The notes: generated from the sequence alone by a model not told the origin. A stretch of DNA of 31,583 nt from a virus (IMGVR_UViG_3300002140_000210:1-31583); one strand, 5' to 3'; counted from the first letter of the stretch, positions 2,870 through 27,955 are shown. Numbers and translations: made by a program.

Positions 2870-2904
2870 TTAATAGGGGAAACTTGTTTTCCCCATTAAT
2901 TTTT
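2870..2904 (+). terminator. Intrinsic terminator after groEL
   Basis: TTAAT, a one-base bulge, GGGGAAA, a five-base loop, TTTCCCC and ATTAA form a 12-pair stem. It is followed directly by TTTTT at 2900-2904. The element ends the chaperonin unit and physically overlaps the promoter of the next gene. Confidence 0.85.
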
Positions 2905-2914
2905 CGTATATTAT
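2883..2914 (+). promoter_or_regulatory. Bacteroidota-type promoter embedded in terminator
   Basis: CTTG at 2883-2886, a 20-base spacer, then TATATTAT at 2907-2914 preceded by TTCG. This is the same layout as the other promoters in the window. The CTTG falls in the loop of the groEL terminator, and only a few bases separate the -7 box from the ATG at 2919. Confidence 0.6.
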
Positions 2915-15072: not shown

Positions 15073-15104
15073 CTTGGTTCCCCCAATAGTTATTCGTATA
15101 TTTA
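15073..15104 (+). promoter_or_regulatory. Bacteroidota-type promoter
   Basis: CTTG at 15073-15076, a 20-base spacer, then TTCG and TATATTTA ending at 15104. It follows the glycan island's last stop by two bases and precedes the ATG at 15133 by 28 bases, so it starts the next unit. Confidence 0.7.
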
Positions 15105-18235: not shown

Positions 18236-18267
18236 TTTGGAGAAGCGAGAAAGCGTTCGTATATTTA
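18236..18267 (+). promoter_or_regulatory. Bacteroidota-type promoter
   Basis: TTTG at 18236-18239, a 20-base spacer, and TATATTTA at 18260-18267 preceded by TTCG. It starts directly after the HNH gene's stop and lies 23 bases before the ATG at 18291. It is one of the best matches in the window to the TTTG/TAnnTTTG consensus. Confidence 0.75.
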
Positions 18268-21378: not shown

Positions 21379-21380
21379 AT

Positions 21381-21411
21381 TTTGATACCCGGAGGAGAGT
21401 TCGTATATTTA
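21381..21411 (+). promoter_or_regulatory. Bacteroidota-type promoter
   Basis: TTTG at 21381-21384, a 19-base spacer containing TACCCGGAGGA, then TATATTTA at 21404-21411 preceded by TTCG. It begins three bases after the previous stop and is 30 bases before the ATG at 21442. It shares the ACCCG part of the triplicated module but not its hairpin. Confidence 0.65.
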
Positions 21412-21835: not shown

Positions 21836-21888
21836 TTTGGCTACCCGGGATATCTTTCGTATATTTACGTGTTCGAATGGTTCGAGCG
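21836..21888 (+). promoter_or_regulatory. Triplicated promoter/leader-hairpin module, copy 1
   Basis: TTTG at 21836, CTACCCGG, and TTCGTATATTTACG at 21856-21869 make the promoter. It is followed directly by the leader hairpin GTTCGAA-TGG-TTCGAGC at 21871-21887. The same arrangement occurs at 24450 and 27648. It drives the gene starting at 21908. Confidence 0.75.
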
Positions 21889-21907
21889 ATTAAAAACAAT
21901 AAAGGTT

Positions 21908-22102
21908 ATGGTTGGAGTACAAAAATACACTTGTGGAGCAGGAGATGGGATGTTTGATGATGATAATGGGAGTTGGGTAGAAGTAAAAGAATATAACAGG
22001 TTAAAAGAATATGTAGAAGAGTTATATGAATTGGCTTACAATAATTGTAGGGGATTAGCTCATGATGAATTAAATGAAATTATAGTTAAATACGAAAAAT
22101 AA
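21908..22102 (+). CDS. Hypothetical protein downstream of module copy 1
   Basis: A 64-residue protein starting MVGVQKYTCGAGDGMFDDD. The N-terminal part is glycine- and aspartate-rich and is followed by a helix (EYNRLKEYVEELYELAYNNC) and an acidic end. The reading frame stays open upstream to an ATG at 21815, but that would run through the promoter and hairpin; the AAAGGTTATG context at 21908 fits the other genes. No family is recognised. The next gene starts after five bases. Confidence 0.65.
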   Translation: MVGVQKYTCGAGDGMFDDDNGSWVEVKEYNRLKEYVEELYELAYNNCRGLAHDELNEIIVKYEK

Positions 22103-22107
22103 AGGTT

Positions 22108-22374
22108 ATGAAAACATTCGAAGATATTACTTGGAGCAAACATCAAATTGGTATTAATGCAATTCAAGGGCTATTAATGCTAGATAATGGTATAGAATTA
22201 TCCATTGTAGCAGGTAAAGGGATGTACAGTACACCCCGTGAAGATTTGGGTTCACCTGATTTATATTCATCATTTGAAGTTACAATATTTGATCAAAATG
22301 GTGATATGGTTGATGATGTGTTAGGATGGAAATCCAAAGAGGATATTAATATCTTAATCCAAATCCATTCATAA
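22108..22374 (+). CDS. Hypothetical protein
   Basis: An 88-residue protein with alternating beta strands: GINAIQGLLMLDNGIELSIVAG, SSFEVTIFDQNGDMV and a final helix. The pattern D-N-G-x-E-L-S-I-V-A-G-x-G-x-Y-S-x-P-R suggests a small beta-sheet domain seen in phage unknowns. No catalytic residues stand out. The start uses AAAGGTTATG, and its stop TAA is itself part of the next gene's AAGGTTATG leader. Confidence 0.7.
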   Translation: MKTFEDITWSKHQIGINAIQGLLMLDNGIELSIVAGKGMYSTPREDLGSPDLYSSFEVTIFDQNGDMVDDVLGWKSKEDINILIQIHS

Positions 22375-22379
22375 AGGTT

Positions 22380-22619
22380 ATGAGTAATAAAGATAAGAGA
22401 TACGTTGTACAAATGGATATGTACGTGTATGCAGAAAATGATTATATGGCTAGAAAGCGTGCTAATGACTTAAAACTATCAATAGAAAGATTACGCCATT
22501 CAAGTGGAGTTGGGGTAAGTGAAATTGGTGAACAACCATTTGCTAGTCTTGTTTACCGTAAATTAGATGACCCTTCATTTACACCTAAAGATATGTCTAA
22601 CAACTCATTACCGTTTTAA
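22380..22619 (+). CDS. Hypothetical protein
   Basis: A 79-residue protein. KRYVVQMDMYVYAENDYMARKRANDLKLSIE gives a strand-helix unit in which Y-x-Y-A-x-x-D-x-x-A-x-x-x-A recalls small phage proteins with a ferredoxin-like fold. The remainder is glycine-rich (SSGVGVSEIGEQPFASLVYRK). No function is assigned. Leader and stop of the upstream gene are fused, so the two are co-expressed. Confidence 0.7.
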   Translation: MSNKDKRYVVQMDMYVYAENDYMARKRANDLKLSIERLRHSSGVGVSEIGEQPFASLVYRKLDDPSFTPKDMSNNSLPF

Positions 22620-22620
22620 T

Positions 22621-22761
22621 ATGAAAGCAGGAGATTGGATATTATATAACAATAAACGTAAAAAATGCTTTGGTATTCATTTTAATGGTAATATTTTAAT
22701 AAAAATGAATGGTAATTTAGTTCAAGTCCCTAAAGAAAAAACAACAGCTAATCATGGGTAA
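22621..22761 (+). CDS. Small hypothetical protein
   Basis: A 46-residue protein starting one base after the upstream stop. MKAGDWILYNNKRKKCFGIH followed by FNGNILIKMNGNLVQVP is a run of short strands, like a small SH3-like barrel. A longer frame begins at 22567 inside the previous gene; the ATG at 22621 is preferred because it directly follows the stop. It overlaps the next gene by eight bases. No family recognised. Confidence 0.6.
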   Translation: MKAGDWILYNNKRKKCFGIHFNGNILIKMNGNLVQVPKEKTTANHG

Positions 22762-23176
22762 ATTTTTAAAACATAAAATAAAACGATTGGGTCAAAATCT
22801 TTGGATTTGGTCTAAAAGAAAATTCGATGCTTCTGAACATGGTATATATGATTTAACACCACCACAGAAAAAAGCCATAGCAATATGCATTCATCTAATT
22901 AATAATCCTAATTCAGAACTATTAAGGACCACTACTTCAGAAAAAAGATATGTTAAATATATGGGATACTTTTTAGTAATAACATACGATAGTATACACA
23001 TAATTAATCATGTTTACTCATATGATGTACCTTTAAAAGGTAGAAAATTTAATAATATTAAAAACTTATTTGATAAAAGATTAGATGCTGATAGATTACA
23101 AATGGAATTAGAAATAGGGGACAATATTAAACATTCATTAAATATTGTATTGGAAAATTTAAAACAAACATTTTAA
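22754..23176 (+). CDS. Hypothetical protein upstream of DNA ligase
   Basis: A 140-residue protein. The basic opening MGKFLKHKIKRLGQNLWIWSKRKF could touch nucleic acid. It is followed by LTPPQKKAIAICIHLINNPNSELL and a beta segment YVKYMGYFLVITYDSIHIINH. The C-terminal half is helical. The family is unknown. It ends three bases before the ligase gene, so a shared transcript is likely, but that does not prove a shared role. Confidence 0.7.
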   Translation: MGKFLKHKIKRLGQNLWIWSKRKFDASEHGIYDLTPPQKKAIAICIHLINNPNSELLRTTTSEKRYVKYMGYFLVITYDSIHIINHVYSYDVPLKGRKFNNIKNLFDKRLDADRLQMELEIGDNIKHSLNIVLENLKQTF

Positions 23177-23179
23177 TAT

Positions 23180-24433
23180 ATGAAAGAATTAACTGAGTTT
23201 ATCGAATTAATGCGTGCTACAAGTAGTGCTACTAAAAAAATAGATATTATAAAAAATAGTTCAACATTCATCCACCAAATCCTAGAATACACCTATAACC
23301 CATTTAAACAGTATCATGTTACTAGTAAAACTTGTATTAAAAATAAATTTAAAATAACTAAAGCCAATTATGGTTTATTTGAGTTACTAGATATACTAAC
23401 TAGTAGAAAATCAACAGGACATGAGGCCATAGGTTTAATAAATAGTTTTGCTGAGTTTCAATTCGATCCTTGGATTTATAAAATTATAGATAAAGATTTA
23501 GGTATTAGGGTAGGTGATTCAATAATTAACAAAGCAGTACCAGGTCTTATACCTACATTTAAAGTTGCATTAGCCAAAGAATATGAGGGTAAATGTGATT
23601 GGAGTGAAGGTTGGTATGCGTCTCGAAAATTAGATGGTGTTCGTTGTTTAGCTGTAGTTGATTTTGAAGGTAGATGTACGCTTTACTCTAGAATGGGTAA
23701 AGAATTTACTACACTAAATAAAGTTAAATCTTCAATCGAAGATACTGGTATTACTAATACAGTTTTTGATGGTGAAATTTGTTTACTAGATGAAAATGGT
23801 AATGAAGATTTTCAAAGTGTAATGAAAGAACTTAAACGTAAAAACCATCAAATTAAAAATCCTGTATTCATGTTGTTTGACATGATTCAAAAAAATGACT
23901 TCGATAACAATAAATCAACCGAGATTCTATCAGATAGATTAGCTAAATTAAAGGCATTTACCTACACTTCAAACGAAAAAATATTACGTAAATTAATGCA
24001 ACATAAAATAACAGATGATAACCATTTCGAACGGTGGAATAAATTATCAAGTGATAATAATTGGGAGGGATTTATGTTGCGTAAGGATACGAGTTATGAG
24101 GGTAAACGTAGTAAAAATTTACTTAAAGTTAAGGAATTTTTCGATGCTGAATACGTTGTAGTTGATTTTGATATAGATGACCATGAAGTAGTTAGAGAGG
24201 GTAGATCCGAAACGATTAAAATGTTAGCTCAAGTATGGATTGAACATAAGGGCCATAGAGTTAAAGTGGGTAGTGGATTTACCCAGGAACAAAGATTACA
24301 ATATATGGGTGGGAGTATTGTAGGTAAAATAATTACAGTCCAATATTTTGAGGAAACTAAAAATGACAAAGGTGGTATTAGTTTACGATTCCCTACTATG
24401 AAACACGTTCACGGGGATAAAAGAGAAATGTAA
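23180..24433 (+). CDS. ATP-dependent DNA ligase
   Basis: A 417-residue ligase. An N-terminal helical DNA-binding region with KDLGIRVGDSIINKAVP precedes the adenylation domain. The nucleotidyl lysine is K150 in the motif SRKLDGVR, and FDGEICLLD gives motif III with E199. VFMLFDMIQ is motif IIIa, EGFMLRKD motif IV and LLKVKEF motif V. The OB-fold part follows (HRVKVGSGF). All key motifs of nucleotidyltransferase ligases are intact. The size is near that of T4 gp30 (487 residues). It seals nicks in phage DNA during replication and repair. It starts three bases after the preceding gene and is followed by module copy 2. Confidence 0.95.
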   Translation: MKELTEFIELMRATSSATKKIDIIKNSSTFIHQILEYTYNPFKQYHVTSKTCIKNKFKITKANYGLFELLDILTSRKSTGHEAIGLINSFAEFQFDPWIYKIIDKDLGIRVGDSIINKAVPGLIPTFKVALAKEYEGKCDWSEGWYASRKLDGVRCLAVVDFEGRCTLYSRMGKEFTTLNKVKSSIEDTGITNTVFDGEICLLDENGNEDFQSVMKELKRKNHQIKNPVFMLFDMIQKNDFDNNKSTEILSDRLAKLKAFTYTSNEKILRKLMQHKITDDNHFERWNKLSSDNNWEGFMLRKDTSYEGKRSKNLLKVKEFFDAEYVVVDFDIDDHEVVREGRSETIKMLAQVWIEHKGHRVKVGSGFTQEQRLQYMGGSIVGKIITVQYFEETKNDKGGISLRFPTMKHVHGDKREM

Positions 24434-24449
24434 TACTTATGCGTAAAAA

Positions 24450-24502
24450 TTTGGTTACCCGGGGGAAGGTTCGTATATTTACGTGTTCGAATGGTTCGAG
24501 CA
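24450..24502 (+). promoter_or_regulatory. Triplicated promoter/leader-hairpin module, copy 2
   Basis: TTTG at 24450-24453, GTTACCCG, and TATATTTA at 24474-24481 after a 20-base spacer. The hairpin GTTCGAA-TGG-TTCGAGC is at 24485-24501. An extra T-A pair closes the stem here where copy 1 has a T-G pair. It drives the gene starting at 24527. Confidence 0.78.
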
Positions 24503-24526
24503 ATTAAAAATTAAAAAATAAAGGTT

Positions 24527-25273
24527 ATGTTAGAAACACAAGAAGTTATGCAATTAGATTTATTTGAAGGAAAAATATTAACAACTGAACAGACGTTAGA
24601 AATTCAAAAATTCATTGAAAGATGTGATAAAGAGGTTGTTAAAAAACAAGAAGAAAATATTAGAATCCAATTATTACTTGATGAAGCCGGTTTTAGAAAA
24701 GGTATTGATTATGTAAATGATTTTAAAATATTTGAAAGAACTTATAATCATGAGTTTGGGTATGGTTACAATAAAACACAATGGGAAGCTGAGGTTAATG
24801 TAATGGCAAGTAGTGGTGGTTGTAATATTTTATATGATACTCTTCGAAATGGTGAATTAGTAATGAGTAAAAGTGGTGTTTATAGAGAGGATGATAAATT
24901 ACAATGTACTAGTATTACATCACAATATAGATATTACAAGGCAAGTTCATTATTAACTAAACTTAAAGAACATAATAATTCTGAATTAGACAAGCTTAAA
25001 TCCAACGATAAAAAACAAAACATACTAGAATACACAGTTGAGAAATATAAAAAATTATTTCCTAATGCTGAAGTTACAATAGGTTCTGATTATGATAGAA
25101 GTAGAAATTATTACACTGAATTTAAAACAGTAATAATTAATTTCACATCAGGTAGTTATGTTATTTATAAATTAGGTTATGAGCAAGATAGAGAATATTT
25201 ACATAAAAAATTTGATAAGATAGTTGATACATTAAAAGGGATAGATTTATTGAATCACTTTAACAATCAATAA
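24527..25273 (+). CDS. Unknown protein with a QLDLF clamp-binding motif
   Basis: A 248-residue protein of unknown family. At residues 9-13, in a flexible N-terminus, stands QLDLF, the canonical peptide by which bacterial proteins bind the beta sliding clamp. The remainder has a helical segment (ILTTEQTLEIQKFIERCDKEV) and two related beta-rich stretches around YNKTQWEAEVNV and RNYYTEFKTVIINFTSGSYVIY. No nuclease or polymerase motif is seen. It follows module copy 2 after a leader of about 45 bases. If the motif is real, the protein is recruited to host or phage clamps, and may redirect or inhibit replication. Confidence 0.75.
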   Translation: MLETQEVMQLDLFEGKILTTEQTLEIQKFIERCDKEVVKKQEENIRIQLLLDEAGFRKGIDYVNDFKIFERTYNHEFGYGYNKTQWEAEVNVMASSGGCNILYDTLRNGELVMSKSGVYREDDKLQCTSITSQYRYYKASSLLTKLKEHNNSELDKLKSNDKKQNILEYTVEKYKKLFPNAEVTIGSDYDRSRNYYTEFKTVIINFTSGSYVIYKLGYEQDREYLHKKFDKIVDTLKGIDLLNHFNNQ

Positions 25274-25274
25274 T

Positions 25275-25661
25275 ATGAAAGATAGAATAGAAATAGACGG
25301 AGTATGGTACACTAGAGAAGACAGTACCTCCCCAAAAGTAAAACCTCAACTAGAACCCTCAATATCATTTGAAGGTTTAGTATTTGAATCTGACCTTTAT
25401 TGTTTTGAAGCTACTAGAATAAGAGATGATGCCGGTGAATTTTACCATAAAGATTGTACTATTAAATTTACTGATAAATCCATTAAGATTATTGATGGGG
25501 AAGGAAGTAGGGATGAGTCTTGGGACAATACAGAGTGGATGAATGAGTTTTTAAATAATAACCCTGAAGCCCTAGAGGAAGCCGTGAAATCATTGTGTTC
25601 TCAAGGATTAGTAGAATTAAAAGAAGTATTAAATGAATTAGCTGTAAAAGGGTGGATATGA
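25275..25661 (+). CDS. Hypothetical protein
   Basis: A 128-residue acidic protein. IDGVWYTREDS opens it, then FEGLVFESDLYCFEATRIRDDAG, a beta segment and a C-terminal helical half (NNPEALEEAVKSLCSQGLVELKEVLNEL). The pattern suggests a beta domain and a helical hairpin. No motif is recognised. It starts one base after the upstream stop and overlaps the next start (ATGA). Confidence 0.7.
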   Translation: MKDRIEIDGVWYTREDSTSPKVKPQLEPSISFEGLVFESDLYCFEATRIRDDAGEFYHKDCTIKFTDKSIKIIDGEGSRDESWDNTEWMNEFLNNNPEALEEAVKSLCSQGLVELKEVLNELAVKGWI

Positions 25662-25888
25662 GTTGGAATCATAGGGTAATGAAACATAAAGATGGTGATG
25701 ATGATTTTTTTACTATCCATGAAGTATATTATGATAAAAAAGGTAAGATAAATGGATATACTTCTAATGGTACATCGGTGTGTGGTAATTCACTACAGGA
25801 ACTTAGAGAAGGTTTGGAACGCATGTTAAAATCATTAGATAAAGAAATATTAGATTATGATAATGAAGGCGAAAAAATAAAAGAGTAA
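25658..25888 (+). CDS. Small conserved-type phage protein (MSWNHRVM family)
   Basis: A 76-residue protein opening MSWNHRVMKHKDGDDDFFTIHEVYYDKKG. I recall many phage and bacterial small proteins with S-W/Y-N-x-R-V, I-H-E-V-Y-Y-D and a final L-x-x-x-L-D-K-x-x-L-D-Y, as here in MLKSLDKEILDYD; their function is unknown. The ATG at 25658 in an ATGA overlap is preferred to a GTG two codons earlier. After it comes a 153-base stretch without an intact gene, holding only a decayed frame. Confidence 0.75.
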   Translation: MSWNHRVMKHKDGDDDFFTIHEVYYDKKGKINGYTSNGTSVCGNSLQELREGLERMLKSLDKEILDYDNEGEKIKE

Positions 25889-25894
25889 TTATAA

Positions 25895-26005
25895 TCATTT
25901 ACTTGGCAAACAACTCTAGTAACAGAAATAATTGAACAAAGAGAAGATTATATTAAATTTAATACTGAAAACTCTTCTTATGAATTGTTTGGATTATCAA
26001 AATAG
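25895..26005 (+). pseudogene. Start-less open frame, possible gene remnant
   Basis: A 36-codon open frame (SFTWQTTLVTEIIEQR, then EDYIKFNTENSSYELFGLSK) ends in TAG at 26003-26005. A stop directly precedes it and it has no ATG, GTG or TTG start. Its composition is protein-like, so it may be the last part of a lost gene. Chance cannot be excluded at this length. Confidence 0.3.
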
Positions 26006-26041
26006 ATTTCATATATTAAAACATAAATAAAAATAAAAGTC

Positions 26042-26470
26042 ATGAATGTATCTCAAGCATTAAAGAAAAAAAACAAATTAGCTATTGAGCTAAAGAAGCA
26101 ATACGCAATTGCTCAAAAGTTTAACTCACAAGAAGCTGGTAACCCAAGACGTTACTCAGTACAGGATGCCTTAGATAAGGCAGCTGAAATCACAGCTGAG
26201 TTAATTGATTTGAAAACTAGAATCCACTTGGCAAACGCGCCTGTGTATTCTAAAATATTCCGTATGGCGGAATTAAAAGGAAGAATCAAGGAATTAAAAA
26301 AAGTACCTACAGATGAAGGTAAGCATGAGGGTAGATATGGTTCACCAGCATCAGAAAAAGAAGTAGAAATCAATATCGCTCAATTGGATGGATTTGTGGC
26401 GACATTAGAAGCATCAATCGAAGAAATTCAAGCAGAATTAGACGTGCATAACGCTACGACTACAATATAA
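26042..26470 (+). CDS. Coiled-coil protein, DIP1984-like
   Basis: A 142-residue helical protein. SQALKKKNKLAIELKKQYAIAQKF is the first helix, then a conserved turn SQEAGNPRRYSVQDALDKAAEITAELIDLKTRIHLANAPVY. A second helical block ends INIAQLDGFVATLEASIEEIQAELDVHNATT. The two-helix layout with R-I-x-x-A-N in the middle recalls DIP1984-type proteins, whose function is unknown. Codons such as GCG, CGT and CTG-type choices are more frequent than in neighbours, so it may have been gained recently or be highly expressed. The leader is AATAAAAGTCATG. Confidence 0.65.
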   Translation: MNVSQALKKKNKLAIELKKQYAIAQKFNSQEAGNPRRYSVQDALDKAAEITAELIDLKTRIHLANAPVYSKIFRMAELKGRIKELKKVPTDEGKHEGRYGSPASEKEVEINIAQLDGFVATLEASIEEIQAELDVHNATTTI

Positions 26471-26472
26471 TT

Positions 26473-26671
26473 TAAGGGTAAGGGAGTGATGATAAGATGA
26501 TACTCGATGATTCTTTACAACTTTACTGAGAGCCAAACAGGGTGATAAGTGATATCGAATATGAAAATCAAGAATCAACAATTCAACACATCAACAATCG
26601 CGCACGTTCAATAAATTCAACATTCTTTGAAACCGGGATCTAGAATATTGTTTTAGATTTACTCCCCCTTA
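26473..26671 (+). ncRNA. Candidate structured non-coding element, closed by a long-range stem
   Basis: The gene-free stretch 26471-26693 is bracketed by complementary ends. TAAGG and GGGAGT (26473-26487, with a four-base bulge) pair with ACTCCC and CCTTA (26661-26671). Inside are three GATGAT units (26488, 26496, 26506) and four TCAACA units (26575, 26583, 26591, 26617), three of them exactly eight bases apart. A local hairpin ATCTA/TAGAT lies near the 3' end. All frames on both strands are broken by stops. It fits no tmRNA, RNase P, tRNA or group I intron signature that I know. Confidence 0.45.
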
Positions 26672-26693
26672 TATTAACTTTAAAATAAAAATT

Positions 26694-26924
26694 ATGATTT
26701 GGATTTTATTATTATACGTTTTACCATTAACTATTGGTGTACTAGGAGCATACCTTATGGTAAAAAGAGATGGAGGACCAGTAATAGAGTTTTTAAAAAT
26801 ACTTCCTTTTCTGCTAATTCCTATGCTTAATATAATAGCTGTAGTGGCATGTGTATTCTTTGAAATAGAAGAATGGATTAAAAATAATAAATCATTCCAA
26901 GATTTTTTAAATAAAAGATTATGA
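26694..26924 (+). CDS. Small inner-membrane protein
   Basis: A 76-residue protein with two hydrophobic segments, about residues 2-22 (IWILLLYVLPLTIGVLGAYLM) and 34-56 (ILPFLLIPMLNIIAVVACVFF). They are joined by a short charged turn (KRDGGP). The C-terminal 20 residues are charged and probably cytoplasmic. Two-segment small membrane proteins in phages include holins and superinfection factors. It is not beside the glucosaminidase gene, so a holin role is possible but not supported by position. It overlaps the phosphoesterase gene by four bases. Confidence 0.75.
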   Translation: MIWILLLYVLPLTIGVLGAYLMVKRDGGPVIEFLKILPFLLIPMLNIIAVVACVFFEIEEWIKNNKSFQDFLNKRL

Positions 26925-27637
26925 AAATAACATTTATTTCAGATACACATACAAGACATGGATTAATTCCAATGGAAGACCTACCAGGTGGAGATCTATT
27001 GATACATGCCGGGGATATAATGAACTCGGGATATAATAAAAATGATATTCATGATTTTTGTACTTGGTTTCATTCACTTGATCAGTATGAAGATAAGGTA
27101 TTTATAGCAGGTAACCATGATTGGATGTTTCAAAACCATCCCTTAGAAGCTAATACAATTGTTAATAATTATGGTAGTATAACTTATCTTCAAGATGATG
27201 ATTTTGTAATATATGGTGATGGTCCAAACGGAGATATGCCTGAAAATAATTTTCGCATATACGGTTCACCTTGGCAACCTTGGTTTTATGATTGGGCATT
27301 TAACTTACCAAGAAATGGGATTGAATTAGCAGGTAAGTGGGAAGCTATTCCAGACAATATAGATATTCTTATTACACATGGCCCAGCTTATGGGTTTGTT
27401 GATACTGTAAAAGGGAGGAGGAATGATCACTTGGGATGCGAACTATTAGCTGAAAGAATACAGGTAATAAAACCAAAAATCCATGTATGCGGCCACATTC
27501 ACTCCGGATATGGAGTCCATACAGTTGATGGAGTACATTATATAAACGCTTCGGTATTGGATGAGAGTTACAAATATACCCAAAAACCAATCAACGTAGA
27601 ATGGGATAAAGAAAGTAATATATTATTTTACAAATAA
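26921..27637 (+). CDS. Calcineurin-like metallophosphoesterase
   Basis: A 238-residue phosphoesterase with the full two-metal motif set: ISDTH (D8, H10), HAGDI (D32), AGNHDW (N65, H66, D67), LITHGP and the late CGHIHSGYG. The length and the GHIHSGYG end match the MPPED-type branch. Family members hydrolyse cyclic or linear phosphodiesters and 2',3'-cyclic nucleotides. In a phage it might remove signalling nucleotides or process DNA or RNA ends; cyclic-nucleotide anti-phage defence would be a plausible target, but that is inference. It is coupled to the small membrane protein gene upstream and followed by module copy 3. Confidence 0.9.
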   Translation: MKITFISDTHTRHGLIPMEDLPGGDLLIHAGDIMNSGYNKNDIHDFCTWFHSLDQYEDKVFIAGNHDWMFQNHPLEANTIVNNYGSITYLQDDDFVIYGDGPNGDMPENNFRIYGSPWQPWFYDWAFNLPRNGIELAGKWEAIPDNIDILITHGPAYGFVDTVKGRRNDHLGCELLAERIQVIKPKIHVCGHIHSGYGVHTVDGVHYINASVLDESYKYTQKPINVEWDKESNILFYK

Positions 27638-27647
27638 TGCGCGAAAG

Positions 27648-27700
27648 ATTGGGTTACCCGAAGGAAAGTTCGTATCTTCACGTGTTCGAATGGTTCGAGA
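27648..27700 (+). promoter_or_regulatory. Triplicated promoter/leader-hairpin module, copy 3
   Basis: ATTG at 27648-27651, GGTTACCCG, a TTCG and TATCTTCA (27673-27680), then GTTCGAA-TGG-TTCGAGA at 27684-27700. Two bases of the -7 box differ from the other copies, and the outermost stem pair is lost. It precedes the ATG at 27728. Confidence 0.68.
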
Positions 27701-27727
27701 GATTAAAATTATTTAAAAATAAAATAA

Positions 27728-27955
27728 ATGAAAGCACAAAGACAGATTTTACATAATTGCTTGTCTCAAGCAAAAAGTTTTTATAAATTGGGTGATAATG
27801 AACAAGCCCGGGATTGGTGTGATAGAGGAATTGTATTCGTTGCTAATAAGAAAATGAATGGGTTTGGGGGAGAGGATATAATTGAGGGAGTTAAAGTAGA
27901 TTTATGGTTAGAAAGATTTTGGATGTATTTAGAAAATAAAAATTTATTACTATAA
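27728..27955 (+). CDS. Hypothetical helical protein (TPR-like)
   Basis: A 75-residue helical protein. QILHNCLSQAKSFYKLGDNEQARDWCDRGIVFV looks like one tetratricopeptide-type helix pair (A-x-x-x-Y-x-x-G-x-x-x-x-A). It is followed by a glycine-rich turn NGFGGEDIIEG and a final helix WLERFWMYLENK. A single TPR-like unit suggests protein binding, but the match is weak. It is first behind module copy 3. The minus-strand frame across it is a shadow. Confidence 0.7.
   Translation: MKAQRQILHNCLSQAKSFYKLGDNEQARDWCDRGIVFVANKKMNGFGGEDIIEGVKVDLWLERFWMYLENKNLLL

Follow-up and report, generated by a model that had tools for sequence, protein, structure and literature searches.

What does a phage gain by placing the same short hairpin directly behind the promoters of several unrelated genes? 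The question is raised by a viral-record fragment with a GC content of 30% (IMGVR_UViG_3300002140_000210:1-31583; here called the window, which is the whole stretch of 31.6 kb that was analysed), in which a promoter followed by such a hairpin occurs three times. Nearly all long open reading frames of the window are on the + strand, and its products include an Hsp20-like protein, GroEL, a T4-type clamp loader, glycosyltransferases, a nucleotide-sugar epimerase, a UDP-glucose dehydrogenase and an ATP-dependent DNA ligase.

A search of cultured phages with the window gave no near match. Two contigs with the same promoters as the window encode a T4-type major capsid protein; it aligns over its full length with the one of Flavobacterium phage vB_FspM_immuto at 56% identity. 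The window's run of chaperonin and glycosyltransferase genes recurs in immuto. Because of this capsid identity and the shared gene run, the window is identified, from its sequence, as a fragment of an uncultured T4-like, immuto-like phage whose nearest cultured relative is immuto. The hosts are probably flavobacteria, likely marine ones. In one contig (IMGVR_UViG_3300030380_006811), a search over its record reports two TAA codons within the matched major capsid frame.

Three promoter and hairpin modules in the window

Each module comprises a Bacteroidota-type promoter (-33 TTG, -7 TATATTTA) followed by GTTCGAATGGTTCGAG at the predicted transcription start. In register, the copies lie at 21836-21888, 24450-24502 and 27649-27701. 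The original prediction had set the third one base too early (27648-27700), and was right that nearly the same 53 bases recur, with pairwise identities of 46/53, 41/53 and 45/53. The 17-mer ACGTGTTCGAATGGTTC has three occurrences in the window, whereas none of 200 random controls of the same dinucleotide make-up contained any 17-mer three times. The modules and the related promoters of the window are as follows.

2884..2914, + strand: related promoter without hairpin
15074..15104, + strand: promoter of the same type without hairpin
18236..18267, + strand: promoter of the same type without hairpin
21380..21411, + strand: promoter of the same type without hairpin; its leader GGTATATTAATAATTAAAACAATTAAGGTTATG resembles the immuto leader
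21836..21867, + strand: promoter 1, -33 box TTTGG at 21836-21840 and -7 box TATATTTA at 21860-21867; fits the sigma-ABfr consensus (PMC7366714, PMC6847099)
21871..21887, + strand: predicted 5′-terminal hairpin 1, GTTCGAA-TGG-TTCGAGC; RNAfold -7.0 kcal/mol; predicted +1 at about 21872 from the F. johnsoniae T-12 numbering
21908..22102, + strand: first gene of unit 1, 64 aa, no family match; start codon 20 nt past the hairpin
24450..24481, + strand: promoter 2, TTTGG at 24450-24454 and TATATTTA at 24474-24481
24485..24501, + strand: predicted 5′-terminal hairpin 2, GTTCGAA-TGG-TTCGAGC; RNAfold -7.7 kcal/mol
24527..25273, + strand: first gene of unit 2, 248 aa, no family match; orthologues have other hairpins or none
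27649..27680, + strand: promoter 3, TTGGG at 27649-27653 and TATCTTCA at 27673-27680
27684..27700, + strand: predicted 5′-terminal hairpin 3, GTTCGAA-TGG-TTCGAGA, with an outer G.A mismatch; RNAfold -3.1 kcal/mol
27728..27955, + strand: first gene of unit 3, 75 aa, no family match

In each module the -33 box starts 2-17 bases after the upstream stop codon, and the first start codon of the unit follows the hairpin by 20-28 nt; unit 1 extends to the DNA ligase gene (23180-24433). The first genes of the three units are mutually unrelated, as had been predicted, and a family search with them gave no match. For the gene at 27728 one homologue was found, and the 200 bases before that homologue do not contain the module.

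The promoters resemble those of the presumptive host group. The Bacteroidota sigma-ABfr consensus is TTTG / TAnnTTTG (PMC7366714, PMC6847099), and TTTGG with TATATTTA at the same spacing is present in copies 1 and 2, with TTGGG and TATCTTCA in copy 3; the last G of the sigma-ABfr -7 box is A in the window promoters. Both boxes and their spacing are thus shared, but the phage promoters additionally have an extended -7 box (TTCGTATATTTAC in copies 1 and 2, TTCGTATCTTCAC in copy 3) and, in many copies, an inverted repeat at or beside the -33 box. We infer that they are read by the Bacteroidota-type RNA polymerase of the host with its corresponding sigma factor. If the -7 element is numbered as in F. 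johnsoniae (T-12 A-11 T-8 T-7 T-6 G-5; PMC6847099), the predicted +1 falls at most about 2 nt from the first base of the stem. A separate feature of these leaders is their end: AAAGGTTATG is present exactly in 147 of 377 promoter leaders, and the feature is seen in the window at 21901-21910 and 24520-24529; with its G at -3 it fits neither the F. johnsoniae A-3 rule nor a normally spaced Shine-Dalgarno sequence.

The stem had been described as kept while its outer pair changes from T-G to T-A. Such a change is present just outside the 17-mer (T21870-G21888 in copy 1, T24484-A24502 in copy 2), but it is one-sided. The stem itself is kept in copies 1 and 2; in copy 3 the next pair is lost, the outer G-C having become a G27684.A27700 mismatch that leaves six pairs. 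For both reasons, the window alone contains no compensatory change.

Spread, pairing and exchange of the hairpins

A search of related phages for the module, as the original prediction had proposed, found the exact pattern in 39 copies in 34 other viral contigs. Among bacterial genomes it was present in one contig only, which is binned in a MAG, and the cultured phages searched contained no copy. Related loci totalling about 1.3 Mb contain the core of this hairpin (class A, stem GTTCGAATGGTTCGAGC) only behind such a promoter; of ten cores listed as elsewhere, five follow a box of the TTCGTACATT variant and five are reverse-strand readings of palindromic copies.

In other contigs the same promoter is followed, at the same place, by at least six other hairpins. 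Their stems are GTTGAGCGATTAAGCACAAC (class B1), GTTGATAATTAAGTCAAC and relatives (B2-B6), GTTGTTAATAATTAGCAAC (C), ATTGGAAATGGTTCCAAT (D), GTTGGTAAGAAAACCAAC (E) and ATAAGTGAGACACGAAGTTTCATTTAT (G), and in some orthologues a class J hairpin lies about 10 nt inside the leader. The class-A stem is nearly invariant over many phages and unrelated genes, with loop variants TGG, TGT, AGG and TGA. The arms of class B vary freely and its loops are limited to AATTAA, AATGAA, GATTAA and AGTTAA (common form RNNNAA). Some contigs repeat one class (the window, L023, L026), and 20 stretches mix classes within one contig. Another leader class was seen in contig L044, where promoters are followed by CAACGTGTTGAATAAGGCGAGTTGCC-like leaders with a hairpin further inside.

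Of 291 promoters, 83 have a scoring stem whose first base lies 4-5 nt past TATNTT, compared with 0-6 at sites at least 12 nt further on and 5-8 in shuffles. A hairpin with dG <= -5 starts at offset 3-8 in 138 of 377 promoters (at offset 3-6 in 131), and most promoters have no strong hairpin. This offset corresponds to about -3 to +3 of the predicted transcript by the F. johnsoniae numbering. The distance from the end of the hairpin to the next ATG is 12-37 nt, with a median of 18. Some loci had been selected by their class-A sequence, and the collections are fragmentary; the results on compensation and swapping below come from arm-free and protein-selected sets. In a sample not chosen by hairpin, from which redundancy filtering had removed most class-A copies, a first fold count gave 24 of 150 promoters at dG <= -3 against 10.5 in shuffles, a contrast that is clear only for the stronger stems.

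Pairing was examined in an arm-free scan, with the -7 box and the class-B loop as its sole fixed parts. It returned 25 distinct sequences, five of which, apparently coding and unpaired, were put aside by eye. In the remaining 20, all 140 stem cells (140/140) are paired, and slid registers reach at most 51%. Changes on both sides affect three of the seven pairs and 19 cells (shuffled mean 5.6; 0/500), with a covariation score of 0.554 against 0.233; related sequences share changes, so these counts are of non-independent events. The stem cells that are not Watson-Crick comprise 53 G.U and 0 A.C, and it is therefore the sense RNA that folds rather than the DNA or the antisense strand. Covariation within class A alone is weak, consisting mainly of one-sided G.U/A-U changes, because this class is nearly invariant.

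Hairpins were also compared at one gene. Orthologue loci of a 76-aa gene were fetched by protein sequence regardless of promoter, and 48 entered a tree. A leader hairpin is present in 42 of the 48 (39 at the 5′ end and three of class J further in), and these hairpins belong to seven sequence classes. The protein tree requires at least 18 changes of class against four of presence, on a short protein with a weakly supported tree. Between L202 and L203, the upstream gene, promoter and downstream gene are nearly identical, and the whole hairpin is replaced (CATGTTGAGCAGTTAAGCACAACAT to CCTGTTGATAATTAAGTCAACGGG). The window gene at 24527 has 26 relatives; class A is confined to the window, and these relatives have either GTTGATGCAGTTAAGCATCAC-type or class J stems, or no stem at all. 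As read from these alignments, selection is acting on the RNA hairpin and not on a particular sequence. That evolution exchanges the letters wholesale and keeps the hairpin suggests a physical cap that guards the message.

These comparisons bear on three earlier proposals. Control at the RNA level through a 5′-terminal hairpin is borne out by the predicted 5′-end position, the compensatory changes between relatives and the sense-only G.U pairs; conservation is thus not confined to the -7 and -33 boxes. A regulon with one shared signal does not agree with unrelated hairpins on orthologues and the 20 contig stretches that mix classes. The idea of a mobile regulatory cassette survives in part, as hairpins are exchanged in one short piece (L202/L203), but the class-A core is never found away from its promoter.

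Possible roles of the 5′ hairpin

The most likely reading is a generic 5′-terminal stem-loop that slows mRNA decay, which we consider somewhat probable. The promoter, right behind the stop codon of the upstream gene, would be read by the host polymerase, and the first transcribed bases would fold at once into a stem-loop at the 5′ end. The stem would deny 5′-end-dependent nucleases a single-stranded end, so that the mRNA would last longer, in the manner of the ompA 5′ stem-loop, and the A/U-rich start region would stay open for the ribosome. What selection keeps would then be a 5′-terminal stem 12-37 nt ahead of the start codon, whatever its letters. Stem-loops at the 5′ end protect mRNAs and must not be too near the start site (PMC7509114). 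With the stabilisers of E. coli ompA and B. subtilis (PMC7509114) the phage leaders share a stem-loop at or within a few nt of the 5′ end (predicted for the phage), an unpaired stretch between it and the start site, and the unimportance of sequence. The phage leader is much smaller, about 40 nt in all, and promoter-built; its hairpin stands before many unrelated genes, is class-swapped at one gene, and its stabilising effect is a prediction. The conservation of structure over sequence and a stem few nt from the predicted 5′ end agree with such a stabiliser. Against it, a purely mechanical role would not require a class-A stem as uniform in sequence as the one seen, class J (about 10 nt inside the leader) would protect the 5′ end less well, and strong hairpins are missing from most promoters and from the immuto promoters inspected.

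The near invariance of class A and the restricted class-B loops make a binding partner possible. The hairpins might be class-specific sites for one or more phage or host RNA-binding proteins acting as translational or decay regulators, so that genes sharing a class would form a post-transcriptional regulon. The uniform class-A stem over many phages and unrelated genes and the repeated class in some contigs favour this reading. It is nevertheless unlikely, given that orthologues of one gene have up to seven classes or none, that the class-A loop and the class-B arms vary, and that classes are often mixed in one contig, which argues against one binding protein. A more speculative version, and a rather less likely one, regards the classes as 'address labels' that can be exchanged: a separate phage or host RNA-binding factor would read each class, and the 5′ hairpin of about 25 nt would be swapped via recombination between promoter copies. 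If so, one promoter type would serve several post-transcriptional programmes, and phages could re-wire genes.

A direct role in translation is doubtful. A 5′ stem beside the 30S footprint could keep the A/U-rich start region single-stranded or position the ribosome, in agreement with the narrow distance between hairpin and ATG and with the finding that initiation in F. johnsoniae drops when structure lies close to the start (PMC6847099). However, hairpin-less leaders are A/U-rich and unstructured anyway, and some orthologues do without a hairpin. The hairpin does not act as a terminator, since no U-run follows it (TTTT within 8 nt behind the hairpin in 0/138), nor does it block the start site directly, as it ends 12-37 nt before the start codon.

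Antitermination of the lambda nut or HK022 put kind, in which nascent 5′ RNA would allow read-through of the terminator-like hairpins overlapping the next promoters, is highly improbable. Short promoter-proximal RNA hairpins are common to both systems, and terminator-like inverted repeats do lie at the next promoters. Nut boxB and put would lead one to expect one conserved hairpin per phage heading long units; by contrast, stems and loops differ within one phage, and hairpin-led units are shorter, with a median distance to the next promoter of 445 nt against 1543 nt in loci partly chosen by hairpin. No boxA-like conserved element stood out in the leaders read by eye. Least credible is a DNA operator binding a repressor or activator at the start point, for although TTCGAA is palindromic, lies over the start point and is well conserved in class A, the arms are fully replaced at the same gene with pairing kept, a palindrome conserved irrespective of strand was not found, and a DNA site would not favour deviations of the G.U kind only (53 vs 0 A.C).

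Other identities were considered and rejected. GTTCGAA resembles a tRNA T arm, and ARAGORN finds no tRNA-like element; a scan of the window against Rfam also came up empty, with nothing near the three sites up to E <= 10. An ATG is possible in the class-A loop (AATGG) but is absent from the AGG and ATATTT variants, so there is no conserved leader peptide. In the literature searched, no description of such a phage element was found.

To our knowledge, little is known of mRNA decay signals in flavobacteria. The swapped hairpins amount to a natural experiment on the purpose of 5′ mRNA hairpins, with the same gene in close relatives preceded by unrelated hairpins of like shape, and would yield compact 5′ expression parts for these bacteria.

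Inverted repeats at the -33 box and the leaders of immuto

A second structure was observed at the promoters themselves. In 68 of 291 promoters, compared with 2-4 in shuffles, a strong inverted repeat has the TTG of the -33 box in its loop (e.g., CGGGAAGC-TTG-GCTTCCCG and GCGCGTATTC-ATTT-GGATACGCGC). Carriers include L019, L029, L035, L036, L069, L207 and many others, with arms that differ greatly and pair; in the window's own copies the repeat is weak. A T-run follows in 10 of the 68, reaching T5-T9 in some. In the TTG-loop type there are 38 G.U and 18 A.C, which leaves the strand unsettled because all G.U fall at one pair and nearly all A.C at another. The repeat appears to be a fusion in which the upstream gene's 3′ hairpin or terminator has merged with the promoter that follows. 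Bacteroidota phages may protect their messages at both ends, with a 5′ hairpin and a 3′ hairpin fused with the next promoter, which is a testable proposal.

Immuto shares with these phages the -7 box TATATTTAGGTATC, the AATAATTAA leader and terminator-like hairpins overlapping promoters, but has no strong 5′ hairpin at the promoters inspected. Its 66-77 kb region (L157, 16274-26990) contains a run of small genes, many of them preceded by leaders that are almost the same (TATATTTAGGTATCAATAATTAAAACA); several also have terminator-like hairpins that lie between the promoter boxes or overlap them. The region offers a cultured model of the hairpin-less form.
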